A stretch of DNA of 41,617 nucleotides from NCBI GenBank assembly GCA_938091675.1, contig CALKMX010000037.1:1-41617 (forward strand), read 5' to 3'. The notes beneath the pieces are model-generated. The model did no database searches. It worked only from the letters and a program-made list of their open reading frames with translations, and was not told the DNA's origin. The translations under genes and the position numbers were made by a program. Source of the DNA: an uncultured Opitutales bacterium. GTDB lineage: Bacteria; Verrucomicrobiota; Verrucomicrobiia; Opitutales; Seribacteraceae. Of the stretch, positions 26,908 through 32,123 are shown piece by piece (position 1 is the stretch's first letter; every line of letters starts with the position of its first letter).

Positions 26908-27108
26908 ATGTCTATCGAAATTAAGTTACGCAAGGGTGAGCCAATGGACCGTGCAATTCGCCGTCTGAAGAAAACTTTAGACCGTGAGGGCGTCATACGT
27001 GATGTTCGGGCCAAGCGCTATTTTGAGAAACCCTCCGATAAAAAGCGTCAAGCACGCAAGGTAGCAGCCTTTACCCAAATGTTGCGTACCCGTTACGAAA
27101 AAATGTAA
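26908..27108 (+). CDS. rpsU: 30S ribosomal protein S21
   Basis: 66 aa MSIEIKLRKGEPMDRAIRRLKKTLDREGVIRDVRAKRYFEKPSDKKRQ, typical bS21. Confidence 0.93.
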   Translation: MSIEIKLRKGEPMDRAIRRLKKTLDREGVIRDVRAKRYFEKPSDKKRQARKVAAFTQMLRTRYEKM

Positions 27109-27138: not shown

Positions 27139-27180
27139 TATCTCGTCTTTGATGGGATAACTTCCTAGCAATAATTGACA

Positions 27181-29121
27181 ATGTCTCAATTGGCTAAAAG
27201 GAACACGGTTAGCTTGCGCAGAGAATGGCGCTTATTTGACCGGGACCATGCAAAACCAGAAACTTTCCTCAAGTTATGTGAGAGAATGATCGAGGTTGGA
27301 GAGTTTTTACTTGCCCATGATGTGGCTCGAGCAGGGCTGAAAAACTACTCCAATAACAAGGCACTTGCCCAAAAAGCAGCCCATGCCCTTTGTAAGGCGG
27401 GTTCCCCCTTCACTGCTACCCAAGTTCTTGAGGAATTTATTTCTACTGGAGTTTCAGATGTGGAAACCCAGAGCCTTTTGGCAAGTGCCTATAAAGACCT
27501 CTGTGAGAATACCACGGATAATTCCAAAAAACAGCAGTATGCAGACCTGGCAATTGCCAGATACGAGCAGGCATATTTTGGGAAAAATTTTTCCGGGGAT
27601 GGAGATACTCATACGGATGCGGATAACCTTTACTACCCATGTATCAATATCGCATTTATGCATTTCGTTTGCATGAATTATGAGAAAGCTCGTGAGTATG
27701 CCGGTATTGCCTCTCAAATGTGCCTGTCCATCCTTGAGCAGGATGAATCGAACTACTGGGTGAGAGCAACCCAGGCTGAAGCTTTTCTTCTACTGGGAAG
27801 AATTGATGAAGCACTCGATGCTTATGCCCTGGCGGTTGATTTAGCCAGTGCCAAGCCTTCCTATGTTGCCAGCACCCGGAAACAGGCCCTCCAGATAAGT
27901 TCCCTCTATGAGGATGAGAGCATCCGCAAAAGGATCGTTGATGCTTTTCCGACTCTCGGAATTGTTGCCTGTTCGGGGCATTTGATCGATACCCCTGGGA
28001 AAAGCCGCCGGTTCCCGCAGGAAGCAGAATTAATTGTTAGGGCAAAAATTGAGGAAAAACTTGATTTTATGGGTGCTACTTGTGGATACAGTTCTGCGGC
28101 ATGCGGAACAGACATTATTTTTCTTGAAGCCATGTACGAGAGGGGTGGGGAGACCCATGTTTTTCTTCCGTTTGCCAAAGAAGAATTCATTCATACAAGT
28201 GTGGTCAGGGGAGGTGGTGACTGGGTGGCTCGTTTTGAAAAAGTTCTCGATAATGCCACTTCCGTTCACTATGTCACCAATGAGGGTTACTATGGCGATG
28301 ATACCCTCTTTTCCTTTTGTAATGATGTAATGCTTGGATTTGCGGCGATGCGCAGTCGAGGGCTTGATGAAGTGCCTAATCTGCTCCTTTTCTGGGATGG
28401 TCTAAAGGGGCAAGAAGGTGGAACATCCCAGGTTGCACAATCCTGGAAGGAAACCTTCACCGATCCTGTGGTCATTAATTCCCGAGAAGTTCTGGAATTG
28501 CTTGATCAAATAGAAGAGCCGCCAATTCCGAAGGGGGATACCAAGCCAATATTTGTAAAAAGTTTTGGTGACTCGGTTACCGCATTACGCTCCGTAAAAA
28601 CAATGCTTTTTGCAGATGTGGAGGCGTTTACACGGGTAAAAGAGGAACTCACTGCTCAGTTTGTGGAGGTTTTTCACGGAGGGGTGGCCAAGATGATGAA
28701 GGAGCTAGATTGTAAGCCTGATTTTGTGAACAGTTGGGGGGATAGTTTCTTTGCGGTCTTTGATGATTTGAACGATGCATTAAATCTGGCCATTAATATG
28801 AGAGATTTTTTTGGAAATGGAAACTGGCCCGAATTGTCTGAAACCGGCAACCTGGATGTTCGCATTTCTATGCATGCTGGACCAGTCTACGAAGAGTTTG
28901 ACCCTTTGCTAAAGAAACGAAACTTTTTCGGTCGCCATGTTAACCAGGCCGCACGAATTGAACCAATTGTTTTACCAGGCTCGGTCTTTGTTTCGGAAAC
29001 GGTAGCTGCTTTAATCTCTTATCGATATGGAGATTTTGATTTCGAGTATGCAGGCAACCTGGAGCTGGCGAAAGACTTTGGATCCTACCCGGTCTACATA
29101 TTGCAACGAAAAGGGTATTGA
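27181..29121 (+). CDS. TPR-like / Rossmann-like / class III nucleotidyl cyclase multidomain protein
   Basis: N-terminal helical-repeat region with TPR-like segments. Middle LGIVACSGHLIDTPG...GYSSAACGTDIIFLEAMYERGGETHVFLPF. C-terminal cyclase MLFADVEAFTRV, DFVNSWGDSFFAVFDD, VRISMHAGPVYE, NFFGRHVNQAARIEP. Confidence 0.88.
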   Translation: MSQLAKRNTVSLRREWRLFDRDHAKPETFLKLCERMIEVGEFLLAHDVARAGLKNYSNNKALAQKAAHALCKAGSPFTATQVLEEFISTGVSDVETQSLLASAYKDLCENTTDNSKKQQYADLAIARYEQAYFGKNFSGDGDTHTDADNLYYPCINIAFMHFVCMNYEKAREYAGIASQMCLSILEQDESNYWVRATQAEAFLLLGRIDEALDAYALAVDLASAKPSYVASTRKQALQISSLYEDESIRKRIVDAFPTLGIVACSGHLIDTPGKSRRFPQEAELIVRAKIEEKLDFMGATCGYSSAACGTDIIFLEAMYERGGETHVFLPFAKEEFIHTSVVRGGGDWVARFEKVLDNATSVHYVTNEGYYGDDTLFSFCNDVMLGFAAMRSRGLDEVPNLLLFWDGLKGQEGGTSQVAQSWKETFTDPVVINSREVLELLDQIEEPPIPKGDTKPIFVKSFGDSVTALRSVKTMLFADVEAFTRVKEELTAQFVEVFHGGVAKMMKELDCKPDFVNSWGDSFFAVFDDLNDALNLAINMRDFFGNGNWPELSETGNLDVRISMHAGPVYEEFDPLLKKRNFFGRHVNQAARIEPIVLPGSVFVSETVAALISYRYGDFDFEYAGNLELAKDFGSYPVYILQRKGY

Positions 29122-29130
29122 TCCTCATTG

Positions 29131-30564
29131 ATGCATAGTTCTTCTAAAGCCATTGGACTTACTCCCCCTTTCGAAGCTTTCTCAGGGGAGGGACCCTACA
29201 CTTTTGTGAGTTATGCGCATGCGGACAAGGTGGTGGTCTTTAATGCCATGCGACAACTTTATGATAGGGGTGCAAATATATGGTATGATGAAGGTATCAA
29301 GCCGGCTGGAGAGTGGGTGGAGGAAATTGCCCATGCGATCAAAGCATCTTCGTTATTCTTGGTCTTTATTTCACCGCGTTCGGTTGATTCCAGGTATGTT
29401 AGAAGCGAGGTGGGATATGCTCTGAGTGAGAACAAAGAAATCCTGACGGTTTTTGTAGAGGAAACTACTTTGCCTGCTGGGCTTTCCCTATGTTTGCAGC
29501 AATTTCAATCCGTGTTTTTACAGGAGAGCAACTGGAAAGAAAAAGCATTGGAGACCATTTTCGAAAAAATGGACGCCCCGATTTCTTTCAGTTCCGAACT
29601 GGTGGATAATGGTGAAGCGGTGGTCGATCACGGGAAAATTTTGTGGGACCTTTGGGATAAATCCAGGGAAAGGCAACTGGCTCGTTGGCATATCCCAACG
29701 ATTGTTAAAGAAAAGAAGACAAGGAAGGGAAATACGGAGAATCTAGCTTGGTCCGCCAGAGAAAAGCCTCCCACTGAGCCAAGAAAAGTTGTCGGTTCAA
29801 CCCGGCACCCCTTTGCCACAAAAGTGGAAGTTGATCCGGGCAGCGATATTCCTCAAAAAGCAGGAGAATTATTTAGAGATTCAGTAGCGGGCGATTTTTC
29901 GTGGATTCCTTCAGGCGAAATTTCTTTAAAAGTTCCATACTCCGAAGAGACGAAATCGGTCCGTGTAAAAAATGGTTTTTGGATGTCCAGGTTTCTCATT
30001 ACTCAGGACCTGTATGCCAAAGTAATGGGAAACAATCCGAGCTTCTATGATTCATCCGTAAGGGAAAATGTGCAAAATTTTCCTGTTAATAATGTATCCT
30101 GGCTGGATGCGGTTTCTTTTTGCAAGGCATTGACCATTCTCAGTAAAAGCGAAGGAAAGTTGCCCGAAAAATATGAATTTCGTTTACCCACTGAAGTGGA
30201 GTGGGAATATTCCTGCAGGGCAGGTACCCTTACCGAATATTATTTTGGTGATCAACCACACGAATTGCAGGAACATGGATGGTTTCGTGGAAACAGCCAG
30301 AAAATGCTTCACCCGGTTGGCTTGAAAAAGCCCAATCCCTGGGGTCTTTATGATTTGTACGGAAATGTTCGTGAATGGGTTGGGAATTCTTTTGTAAACA
30401 CCCTGCTAAATGATAGTGAACAGGATGAATTCCGCATTAGCCGTGGGGGGGCATACATGAAGGCTGCTGCTGAGTGTCAGTCATCTTCCCGATCCACCAA
30501 TTCTCTTAATCATCGTTTTAGAAACCTCGGGTTTAGACCCGTTTTAGCAAAAGTTCTATCTTGA
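29131..30564 (+). CDS. TIR domain protein fused to a formylglycine-generating-enzyme (FGE-sulfatase) fold domain
   Basis: TIR: YTFVSYAHADKVVVFNAMRQLYDRGANIWYDEGIKPAGEWVEEIAHAIKASSLFLVFISPRSVDSRYVRSEVGYAL. FGE: FWMSRFLITQDLYAKVMGNNPSF, FRLPTEVEWEYSCRAGT, NPWGLYDLYGNVREWVGNSF, RISRGGAY, RNLGFRPV. Confidence 0.9.
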   Translation: MHSSSKAIGLTPPFEAFSGEGPYTFVSYAHADKVVVFNAMRQLYDRGANIWYDEGIKPAGEWVEEIAHAIKASSLFLVFISPRSVDSRYVRSEVGYALSENKEILTVFVEETTLPAGLSLCLQQFQSVFLQESNWKEKALETIFEKMDAPISFSSELVDNGEAVVDHGKILWDLWDKSRERQLARWHIPTIVKEKKTRKGNTENLAWSAREKPPTEPRKVVGSTRHPFATKVEVDPGSDIPQKAGELFRDSVAGDFSWIPSGEISLKVPYSEETKSVRVKNGFWMSRFLITQDLYAKVMGNNPSFYDSSVRENVQNFPVNNVSWLDAVSFCKALTILSKSEGKLPEKYEFRLPTEVEWEYSCRAGTLTEYYFGDQPHELQEHGWFRGNSQKMLHPVGLKKPNPWGLYDLYGNVREWVGNSFVNTLLNDSEQDEFRISRGGAYMKAAAECQSSSRSTNSLNHRFRNLGFRPVLAKVLS

Positions 30565-30635: not shown

Positions 30636-32123
30636 ATGAGCGAGCAGAATAATACAAAGCCCCCAAAAAAAGAGGTGTTGGATGGAAGTGATCAAGTGGC
30701 GGTCCGCCTTGCTAAATTAGATGGGTTGCGCGATTCCGGAAATGATCCATTCCTCTCAAACTGGGAACAGACTCATGTTTCCAGTGAAGCATCTGGGATG
30801 CTTAAAGAAGAAGATGAAACCGGGCCAGAAGTTTCTGTTGCCGGTCGGATTATGGCCTTTCGCCTCATGGGCAAGGCTGCCTTTCTTAAACTGCTCGACC
30901 GGGAGGGCAAGATACAGATTTATGTCCGCCGAGATGAGATCGGGGATGATGAATATGCCGCTTTCAAAAAATTGGATCTAGGAGATTTTATAGGGGTTCG
31001 TGGACCTCTTTTCCGAACCAAGACTGGGGAAGTTACGGTGCGGGCAAAAGAGTATCGTCTTGTTTCGAAAGCCTTGCGTCCTTTGCCGGAAAAATGGCAT
31101 GGGCTCAGTGACAATGATCAAATTTACCGGCAGCGCTACCTTGATCTTGTGGTAAATGATGATTCCCGGGAACGATTCAGAACTCGTAGTCGAATAATTC
31201 GTGAAATTCGTGAGTTTATGTGGTCCCGAGATTTCATTGAAGTGGAAACCCCCATGCTGCAAGCAGTTTCGGGAGGTGCCGCAGCCCGTCCATTCCGTAC
31301 CCATTTTAACGCATTGGATTGTGACTTTAATCTCCGAATTGCCCTTGAGCTTCATCTCAAGCGTATGCTTGTTGGAGGTTTTGACCGGGTATTTGAAGTA
31401 GGTCGTGTTTTTCGGAATGAAGGACTTTCCCGCCGCCATAATCCGGAATTTACCATGCTCGAAGCCTATCAGGCTTATTCTGATTACCGGGGAATGATGG
31501 AACTTACCCGTTCCCTGATTCAACAGGTGGCCGAGCGTTCCCTTGGCACATTGCAGGTGGAAAGGCCAGAGGGAGAGGTGATTGATCTCTCTGGAGAGTG
31601 GCGGGAAGCAAAATACAAGGATTTGATTCTTGATGCAGTTGGAAGAGAGGACTGGTTTGAACTCCCAAAGACTGAGAAATTGCAAAAAACCAAGGATATG
31701 GGGATAGAGGTGGATCCCGCGCTTGAGGATTTTGAGGTAACCAATGATGTTTTTGAAAAAGTGATCGAACATACCCTGATTCAGCCGACATTCGTAACCC
31801 ATATTCCACGGGAGCTTTGTCCCCTTGCCAAAATTACCCAGGCTGACCCGACCACCATCGATGTATTTGAACTTTGCATAAACGGGCAGGAAATTGCCCC
31901 TGCCTATTCTGAGCAAAATGATCCCGCCGTTCAGCGGGAAGCCTTCCTGCGTCAGGTGGGCGAAGAAACCCAAGAACTGGACGATGATTTCCTGCTCGCT
32001 CTGGAGCACGGTATGCCCCCTGCCGGAGGCATGGGAATGGGTATTGATCGGTTAGTCATTTTCCTTACCAAAGCGGCAAATATCCGGGATACCATTTTGT
32101 TTCCCACCTTGCGCCCGCTTTGA
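30636..32123 (+). CDS. lysS: Lysyl-tRNA synthetase (class II)
   Basis: 495 aa; FIEVETPMLQAVSGGAAARPFRTHFNALDCDFNLRIALELHLKRMLVGGFDRVFEVGRVFRNEGLSRRHNPEFTMLEAYQAY; C-terminal PPAGGMGMGIDRLVIFLTKAANIRDTILFPTLRP. Confidence 0.97.
   Translation: MSEQNNTKPPKKEVLDGSDQVAVRLAKLDGLRDSGNDPFLSNWEQTHVSSEASGMLKEEDETGPEVSVAGRIMAFRLMGKAAFLKLLDREGKIQIYVRRDEIGDDEYAAFKKLDLGDFIGVRGPLFRTKTGEVTVRAKEYRLVSKALRPLPEKWHGLSDNDQIYRQRYLDLVVNDDSRERFRTRSRIIREIREFMWSRDFIEVETPMLQAVSGGAAARPFRTHFNALDCDFNLRIALELHLKRMLVGGFDRVFEVGRVFRNEGLSRRHNPEFTMLEAYQAYSDYRGMMELTRSLIQQVAERSLGTLQVERPEGEVIDLSGEWREAKYKDLILDAVGREDWFELPKTEKLQKTKDMGIEVDPALEDFEVTNDVFEKVIEHTLIQPTFVTHIPRELCPLAKITQADPTTIDVFELCINGQEIAPAYSEQNDPAVQREAFLRQVGEETQELDDDFLLALEHGMPPAGGMGMGIDRLVIFLTKAANIRDTILFPTLRPL

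Follow-up and report, generated by a model that had tools for sequence, protein, structure and literature searches.

Two kinds of described bacterial system bring nucleotide cyclases together with TIR domains. Pycsar pairs a class III cyclase, PycC, with a PycTIR or PycTM effector (PMC11224242). Kaur et al. (2020, 2021) have described conflict systems in which cyclic nucleoside monophosphate (cNMP) cyclase, TIR, and FGS domains occur (PMC7159879, PMC8195603); the FGS domains are proposed to be invader-binding lectins (PMC8195603). We describe a pair of adjacent genes that shares features with both. It lies in a 41,617-nucleotide stretch of DNA, hereafter the window (positions 1 to 41,617 of contig CALKMX010000037.1, assembly GCA_938091675.1, forward strand), from an uncultured Opitutales bacterium. 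The source is a 1.66-Mb metagenome-assembled genome (MAG), ~91% complete, and among named records Opitutales / Verrucomicrobia MAGs come closest to it.

A preliminary description of this DNA had placed a cyclase gene and a TIR gene between rpsU and lysS, separated by 9 nt, and both open reading frames (ORFs) are where it had them, on the same strand. Gene 1 (27181-29121, + strand) encodes a protein of 646 aa with TPR-S, Rossmann-like, and class III nucleotide cyclase parts, in that order. Its stop codon is 29119-29121, and its best start is the ATG at 27181, preferred over the TTG at 27175 because orthologues align from that methionine. Gene 2 (29131-30564, + strand), 9 nt 3' of gene 1, runs from the ATG at 29131 to 30564 and encodes a 477-aa TIR–FGE-fold protein. 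Neither is a chance ORF: nearly every genome of the family has orthologues of them, and purifying selection acts on both. We read the pair, with a confidence that stops a little short of even, as a two-gene cyclase–TIR signaling module of the conflict type that has become fixed in one family of marine Opitutales. It looks like a Pycsar-like alarm circuit turned, unusually, into a permanent, single-copy part of the family genome.

Recurrence in other genomes

A family-profile search of the phylum recovered relatives of the cyclase in 14 of 199 genera; the genome survey covered this one phylum, and plasmids gave a partial view of others. TIR genes adjoin the cyclase relatives in about five independent Verrucomicrobiota lineages, so that the check proposed in the preliminary description, co-occurrence in other genomes, is passed. 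Five lineages have a TIR within two genes of the cyclase, against ~0.08 expected from per-genome TIR counts (P(>=5) ~9e-9), a figure best taken as strong rather than exact: the test is post hoc and relies on independence, and some genomes have their TIR genes in clusters.

The partners come in several forms. A TIR–TPR gene lies 22 nt downstream of the cyclase in G426, where it is the sole TIR_2 match of the genome, and 18 nt upstream of it in G325; clusters of TIR–TPR and SIR2–TIR genes stand beside the cyclase in G207, G116, and G183. The TPR-S–Rossmann and cyclase parts are themselves separate, overlapping genes in G325, G536, and G569. On one strand of G507 (L114:3581-8923), a SIR2–TIR gene is followed by an nSTAND1–WD40–FGE gene and then by a TPR-S–Rossmann–cyclase gene; by their predicted domains, TIR, FGE, and cyclase are here assembled again from different genes. 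Elsewhere, a DUF4062–NACHT–TPR gene lies 10 nt downstream of the cyclase (G051), and the gene for an ABC protein with a cNMP-binding domain overlaps the cyclase gene upstream (G067).

Several of these loci merit description in their own right. Long arrays of TIR–TPR genes adjoin the TPR-S–Rossmann–cyclase gene in G207 and G183 (L065, L068, L117, L118), with 18 TIR_2 matches in G207. The SIR2–TIR, nSTAND1–WD40–FGE, and cyclase genes of G507 form a candidate three-gene conflict system. In G067 (L069:3256-5541), a RyR-like N-terminal stretch precedes TPR-S–Rossmann–cyclase, and the ABC transporter ends in its cNMP-binding domain.

Plasmids of other phyla carry relatives as well. A Tolypothrix plasmid has a C-terminal cyclase fragment with a TIR–WD40 gene 93 nt further on, and in Caballeronia a TPR-S–Rossmann–cyclase gene has a TIR gene four genes away. 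On plasmids of Rhizobium, Sinorhizobium, and Novosphingobium, the Rossmann-like domain, by itself or joined to TPR-S, occurs near TIR genes. A plasmid of Priestia aryabhattai (L157:3118-7744) carries, in one directional run, PycTM (PF18967, E 1.2e-11), two unassigned genes, a cyclase–TPR-S fusion in which the Rossmann-like domain is absent, and a RyR-domain gene; the run resembles an undescribed Pycsar-type variant. Separately, a Rhizobium beringeri plasmid (L156:5980-7053) encodes a fusion of a NUDIX domain with a cyclase of the N[S/T]WGD type; the genes that follow encode a second NUDIX hydrolase and a DNA methyltransferase.

The two genes might have nothing to do with each other and simply share a conserved chromosomal block: genomes of the family share the order of the whole degP–dnaE–lysS–ccsB block, and adjacency alone is weak evidence there. 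Against this stand reading frames that overlap or nearly overlap across the family, and the independent TIR adjacency of relatives at other genomic positions and in other phyla; we consider such a chance association very unlikely. The recurring partners, as their domains identify them, would be conflict-system effectors or signal receivers, which favors a module that runs from sensing through a messenger to a partner.

Domains and active sites

All four Pfam matches of the pair (TPR-S, Guanylate_cyc, TIR_2, and FGE-sulfatase) exceed their curated cut-offs. Gene 1 opens with a helical repeat region that spans residues ~20-245 and includes a TPR-S (Tetratricopeptide Repeats-Sensor, PF20308) match at 27340-27660 (+ strand; residues 54-160; Pfam E 2.9e-11; 44.3 bits against a cut-off of 27.6). 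AlphaFold was given five orthologues of 77-89% identity, a shallow alignment, and the models were poor, with a mean predicted local distance difference test (pLDDT) score of 48.4 for gene 1 and 29.9 for gene 2. They were used for the helical TPR part only, where helices reach a pLDDT of ~80 in the otherwise poor gene 1 model.

A conserved Rossmann-like domain of ~190 residues, unassigned to a family, separates TPR-S from the cyclase (27940-28500, + strand; residues ~254-440). G266, H267, R277, G309, D311, W348, G386, and W422 are invariant in 27 sequences. This stretch has no match in Pfam or the PDB and no significant similarity to DprA, LOG, TIR, or cyclase profiles; judged by its sequence pattern, the fold may be Rossmann or SLOG-type. 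The preliminary description had given gene 1 a repeat and Rossmann-like sensor region: the repeat part stands and can now be named TPR-S, and the Rossmann label describes a sequence pattern.

The class III nucleotide cyclase catalytic domain occupies 28600-29070 (+ strand; residues 474-630; Guanylate_cyc, PF00211; Pfam E 1.1e-11), scoring 45.1 bits against a cut-off of 21.9 with the catalytic residues present. The metal-binding aspartates D479 and D521 and the transition-state residues N588 and R592 are invariant in 28 family orthologues. Across the TPR-S-linked cyclase relatives the N[S/T]WGD motif is nearly invariant, and the N588 position is often Ser or Thr. Adenylyl cyclases have Lys and Asp at the two base-specifying positions (PMC4215837); in gene 1 both are Asn (N517 at the Lys position, N581 at the Asp position), invariant in the family. 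The base of the putative cyclic nucleotide product is not predictable from this pocket, and N517/N581 are not diagnostic, because Pycsar cyclases differ here among themselves: at roughly this site EaPycC has Arg and Gln, and other residues occur in BcPycC and AnPycC (PMC11224242).

Gene 2 begins with a TIR domain (TIR_2, PF13676; 29203-29556, + strand; residues 25-142; Pfam E 1.2e-19), whose putative catalytic glutamate, E93, is invariant together with its surrounding residues in 23 gene 2 orthologues. It ends with an FGE-sulfatase / C-type-lectin-fold domain (PF03781; 29944-30543, + strand; residues 272-471; Pfam E 3.2e-33). Pfam thus agrees with the earlier account of a TIR protein that lacks a cyclic-nucleotide-binding domain and carries an FGE fold, and the FGE domain proves to be TvpA-like: its closest solved structure is Treponema denticola TvpA (2y3c, E 3.5e-25), a C-type-lectin-fold ligand-binding protein.

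Two other roles for this domain were rejected. An active formylglycine-generating enzyme would need the catalytic cysteine pair, and the gene 2 product contains no CX4C motif; of its cysteines only C449, close to the FGE active-site position, is invariant. A receptor diversified by a diversity-generating retroelement (DGR) is contradicted by the lack of any RVT_1 (reverse transcriptase) match in the ~91% complete window genome, and by an FGE part that is under purifying selection and not hypervariable.

The window genome has a second TIR gene, which encodes a GYF_2–TIR protein (G000:C98:14039-14344; L070:3918-5591). Its relatives occur across the family, with two in tandem in G041 (L073).

Inheritance and selection in the family

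Gene 1 is present as a single copy in 40 of 42 same-family genomes, at 49-90% identity; the apparent absence of the cyclase from G005 is a contig end and not a real loss. A gene 2 orthologue adjoins it in 36 genomes, that is, in 36 of the 38 in which the junction is assembled, with a spacing that ranges from -4 nt (overlap) to +27 nt (gap). The two genes evolve under purifying selection, with an overall nonsynonymous-to-synonymous ratio (pN/pS) of 0.10 for gene 1 and 0.19 for gene 2. The ratio is 0.067 in the cyclase domain and 0.125 in the TIR domain; the poorly conserved linker between TIR and FGE (29566-29880, + strand; residues ~146-250) is the least constrained stretch, at 0.46 against 0.13-0.15 in the flanking domains. 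Synonymous divergence is near saturation, and dN/dS values are indicative only.

A number of observations weigh against a conflict module. Gene 2 has been lost twice, with the cyclase intact in both cases. In G041 the cyclase runs directly to lysS at a clean junction. In G037 (L022:3400-3650) a deletion scar is still in place, where the N-terminal codons of gene 2 run within a few bases into its last-residue codons (YRLRNLGFRVALA). Most of the genomes are MAGs, where a faulty assembly might in principle mimic such losses; the scar and the clean junction argue otherwise. Since the TIR gene was lost twice with the cyclase kept, the pair is not strictly obligate. Six relatives elsewhere in the phylum (G042, G213, G251, G485, G460, and G457) have no TIR or effector neighbor, and the Pfam scan finds only TIR and FGE in the gene 2 product, with no cNMP-binding domain. 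Synteny in the family extends over the whole block, from a degP-like gene to ccsB, so it adds little and we set it aside as proof of function. The divergence of gene 1 tracks that of dnaE (Spearman 0.97), and its distribution in the family is not patchy; from this and the block synteny it follows that the pair is vertically inherited.

The neighbors weigh in the same direction. They are housekeeping genes (an HtrA-type protease gene, dnaE, rpsU, lysS, ccsB, and YchF), and ten other ORFs tested near the locus include no convincing defense gene. Immediately upstream, outside the module, rpsU (ribosomal protein S21; 26908-27108, + strand) was read directly from the sequence, MSIEIKLRKGEPMDRAIRRLKK; downstream, lysS occupies 30636-32123. 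The defense-island context that the preliminary description proposed to look for is not what surrounds the pair, which is single-copy, vertically inherited, and set in a housekeeping block.

Several of these observations would also fit a core stress or physiology regulator. Gene 1 would then be a housekeeping cNMP enzyme. The TIR–FGE protein would be an accessory regulated along with it and might serve as a metabolic or envelope-stress brake, and the pair would have no antiphage role. The pair's single copy, near universality, vertical descent, and housekeeping surroundings, where no other defense gene was found, suit this explanation, as do the persistence of the cyclase after loss of the TIR gene and the four cNMP-binding proteins encoded by the window genome, which could serve as receptors. 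The relatives of gene 1, however, keep conflict-system company (TIR, SIR2–TIR, STAND/NACHT, and PycTM, some of it on plasmids), and a NADase-type TIR whose active site is intact makes an unusual companion for a routine regulator. We regard the regulator as a serious contender, and a doubtful one.

Proposed mechanism

In the conflict-type module that we prefer, TPR-S and the Rossmann-like domain would sense an infection or stress cue and turn on the cyclase, which would make a cyclic mononucleotide in its non-canonical ("N[S/T]WGD") pocket. This messenger, or direct contact, would activate the TIR protein; the TIR protein would cleave NAD+ and bring growth to a stop, and its FGE-fold domain would bind a ligand or recruit a target. 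The cyclase would also act without its TIR–FGE partner, probably through other cNMP receptors of the genome. A cyclase-first order is favored because PycTM and a cNMP-binding ABC protein are among the neighbors of the relatives and because the cyclase survives the loss of gene 2. Since the TIR partner has no cNMP-binding domain, the receptor may be the FGE-fold domain, or the signal may pass by direct contact or in the reverse order.

A reverse, Thoeris-like order would start at gene 2: the FGE domain would sense, the TIR domain would make a NAD-derived messenger, and the Rossmann-like domain would bind it and turn on the cyclase, giving a two-messenger cascade. The TIR part of gene 2 scores with ThsB models, though TIR_2 matches it better than ThsB_TIR does. 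A sensing FGE domain would fit the lectin role proposed for FGS domains (PMC8195603), and on rhizobial plasmids the Rossmann-like domain stands alone, without a cyclase, near TIR–STAND or TIR genes. An hhalign comparison sets its glycine-rich segment YSSAACGTDIIFLEAMYERGGETHVFLP in register with VSGLARGVDTAAHEGALEAGGDTIAVLG of DprA (SLOG-type), but the match falls short of significance (probability 0.3%, P 0.21). Moreover, the cyclase stays intact after TIR–FGE loss in G041 and G037, and the Priestia cyclase has TPR-S and no Rossmann-like domain. This order is, in our judgment, unlikely. Its fullest form, in which a lectin-like FGE domain senses, the NAD-derived messenger of the TIR is read by the Rossmann-like domain, and gene 1 answers with a cyclic mononucleotide, we hold to be decidedly unlikely; if true, it would join Thoeris-type and Pycsar-type signaling in one pathway, encoded by a core gene pair of the family.

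Significance

These loci widen cyclase–TIR signaling beyond Pycsar, to TPR-S-linked N[S/T]WGD cyclases with TIR, SIR2–TIR, STAND–FGE, NACHT, and PycTM partners; the TIR partners examined carry no cNMP-binding domain. As a near-universal core pair of a marine family, the module appears domesticated, which raises the question of whether immune-type signaling is constitutive physiology in this family. The TPR-S sensor is also relevant to the bacterial origins of animal stress signaling, because its relatives on rhizobial and Aliarcobacter plasmids are annotated by NCBI as 'TRAFs-binding', the name of the N-terminal region of ASK1.

Comparison with known systems

Pycsar is one of the closest described systems. 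As in Pycsar, a class III cyclase adjoins a TIR protein, and on the Priestia plasmid a related cyclase–TPR-S gene shares a run with the PycTM effector itself. Unlike Pycsar, gene 1 adds TPR-S and Rossmann-like domains, the pair is core and vertical, and the gene 2 TIR protein is without the cNMP-binding domain through which PycTIR binds cUMP. The PADLOC PycC match of gene 1 (23.9 bits) was rejected as a sign of membership: it is non-specific, and two ordinary cyclases of the same genome score higher, at 81 and 75 bits. The cyclase residues are intact, gene 1 does not score as a member of the PycC clades, and the window holds neither a cNMP-binding–TIR nor a PycTM effector, the one PycTM partner being that of the distant Priestia relative. 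On present evidence, the pair would work like Pycsar but falls outside its definition, for want of such an effector and of a specific match to PycC. The proposal of a cyclase–TIR module distinct from Pycsar stands in part: the genes belong together and have a link to Pycsar through the Priestia PycTM, but their association is not strictly obligate.

With Thoeris (ThsA/ThsB), the pair shares a TIR of ThsB type and, on the partner, a possible nucleotide-binding Rossmann-like domain. Unlike Thoeris, it has no SIR2–SLOG ThsA, neither gene product matching the ThsA or SIR2 family, and the output of the partner is a cyclase. Formylglycine-generating enzymes and TvpA-type DGR variable proteins share the FGE fold of gene 2; they differ from it in that gene 2 has no cysteine pair, its genome no reverse transcriptase, and its domain is conserved. 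Non-canonical class III cyclases of the Rv1900c/LipJ type give weak LipJ matches to gene 1, and Rv1900c also has Asn at the base-specifying Lys position; their partner domains are different, and the TPR-S-linked family of gene 1 has a conserved N[S/T]WGD motif.

The VMAP, iSTAND, and STAND–FGS conflict systems share their domain vocabulary with the pair: a cNMP cyclase, a TIR domain, and an FGS lectin-like domain C-terminal to the effector, with STAND NTPases beside relatives of gene 1 (G507, G051). Unlike the MoxR–vWA (VMAP/iSTAND) systems, the window has no MoxR or vWA product among the scanned neighbors and no identified STAND gene, and the pair is a minimal two-gene form. A partial literature search, which an earlier account could have escaped, found no description of the TPR-S–Rossmann–cyclase and TIR–FGE arrangement, of its recurrence, or of its fixation in a family. 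In these three respects the pair may be new; the kind of system, with the same domain vocabulary, is known (PMC7159879, PMC8195603).

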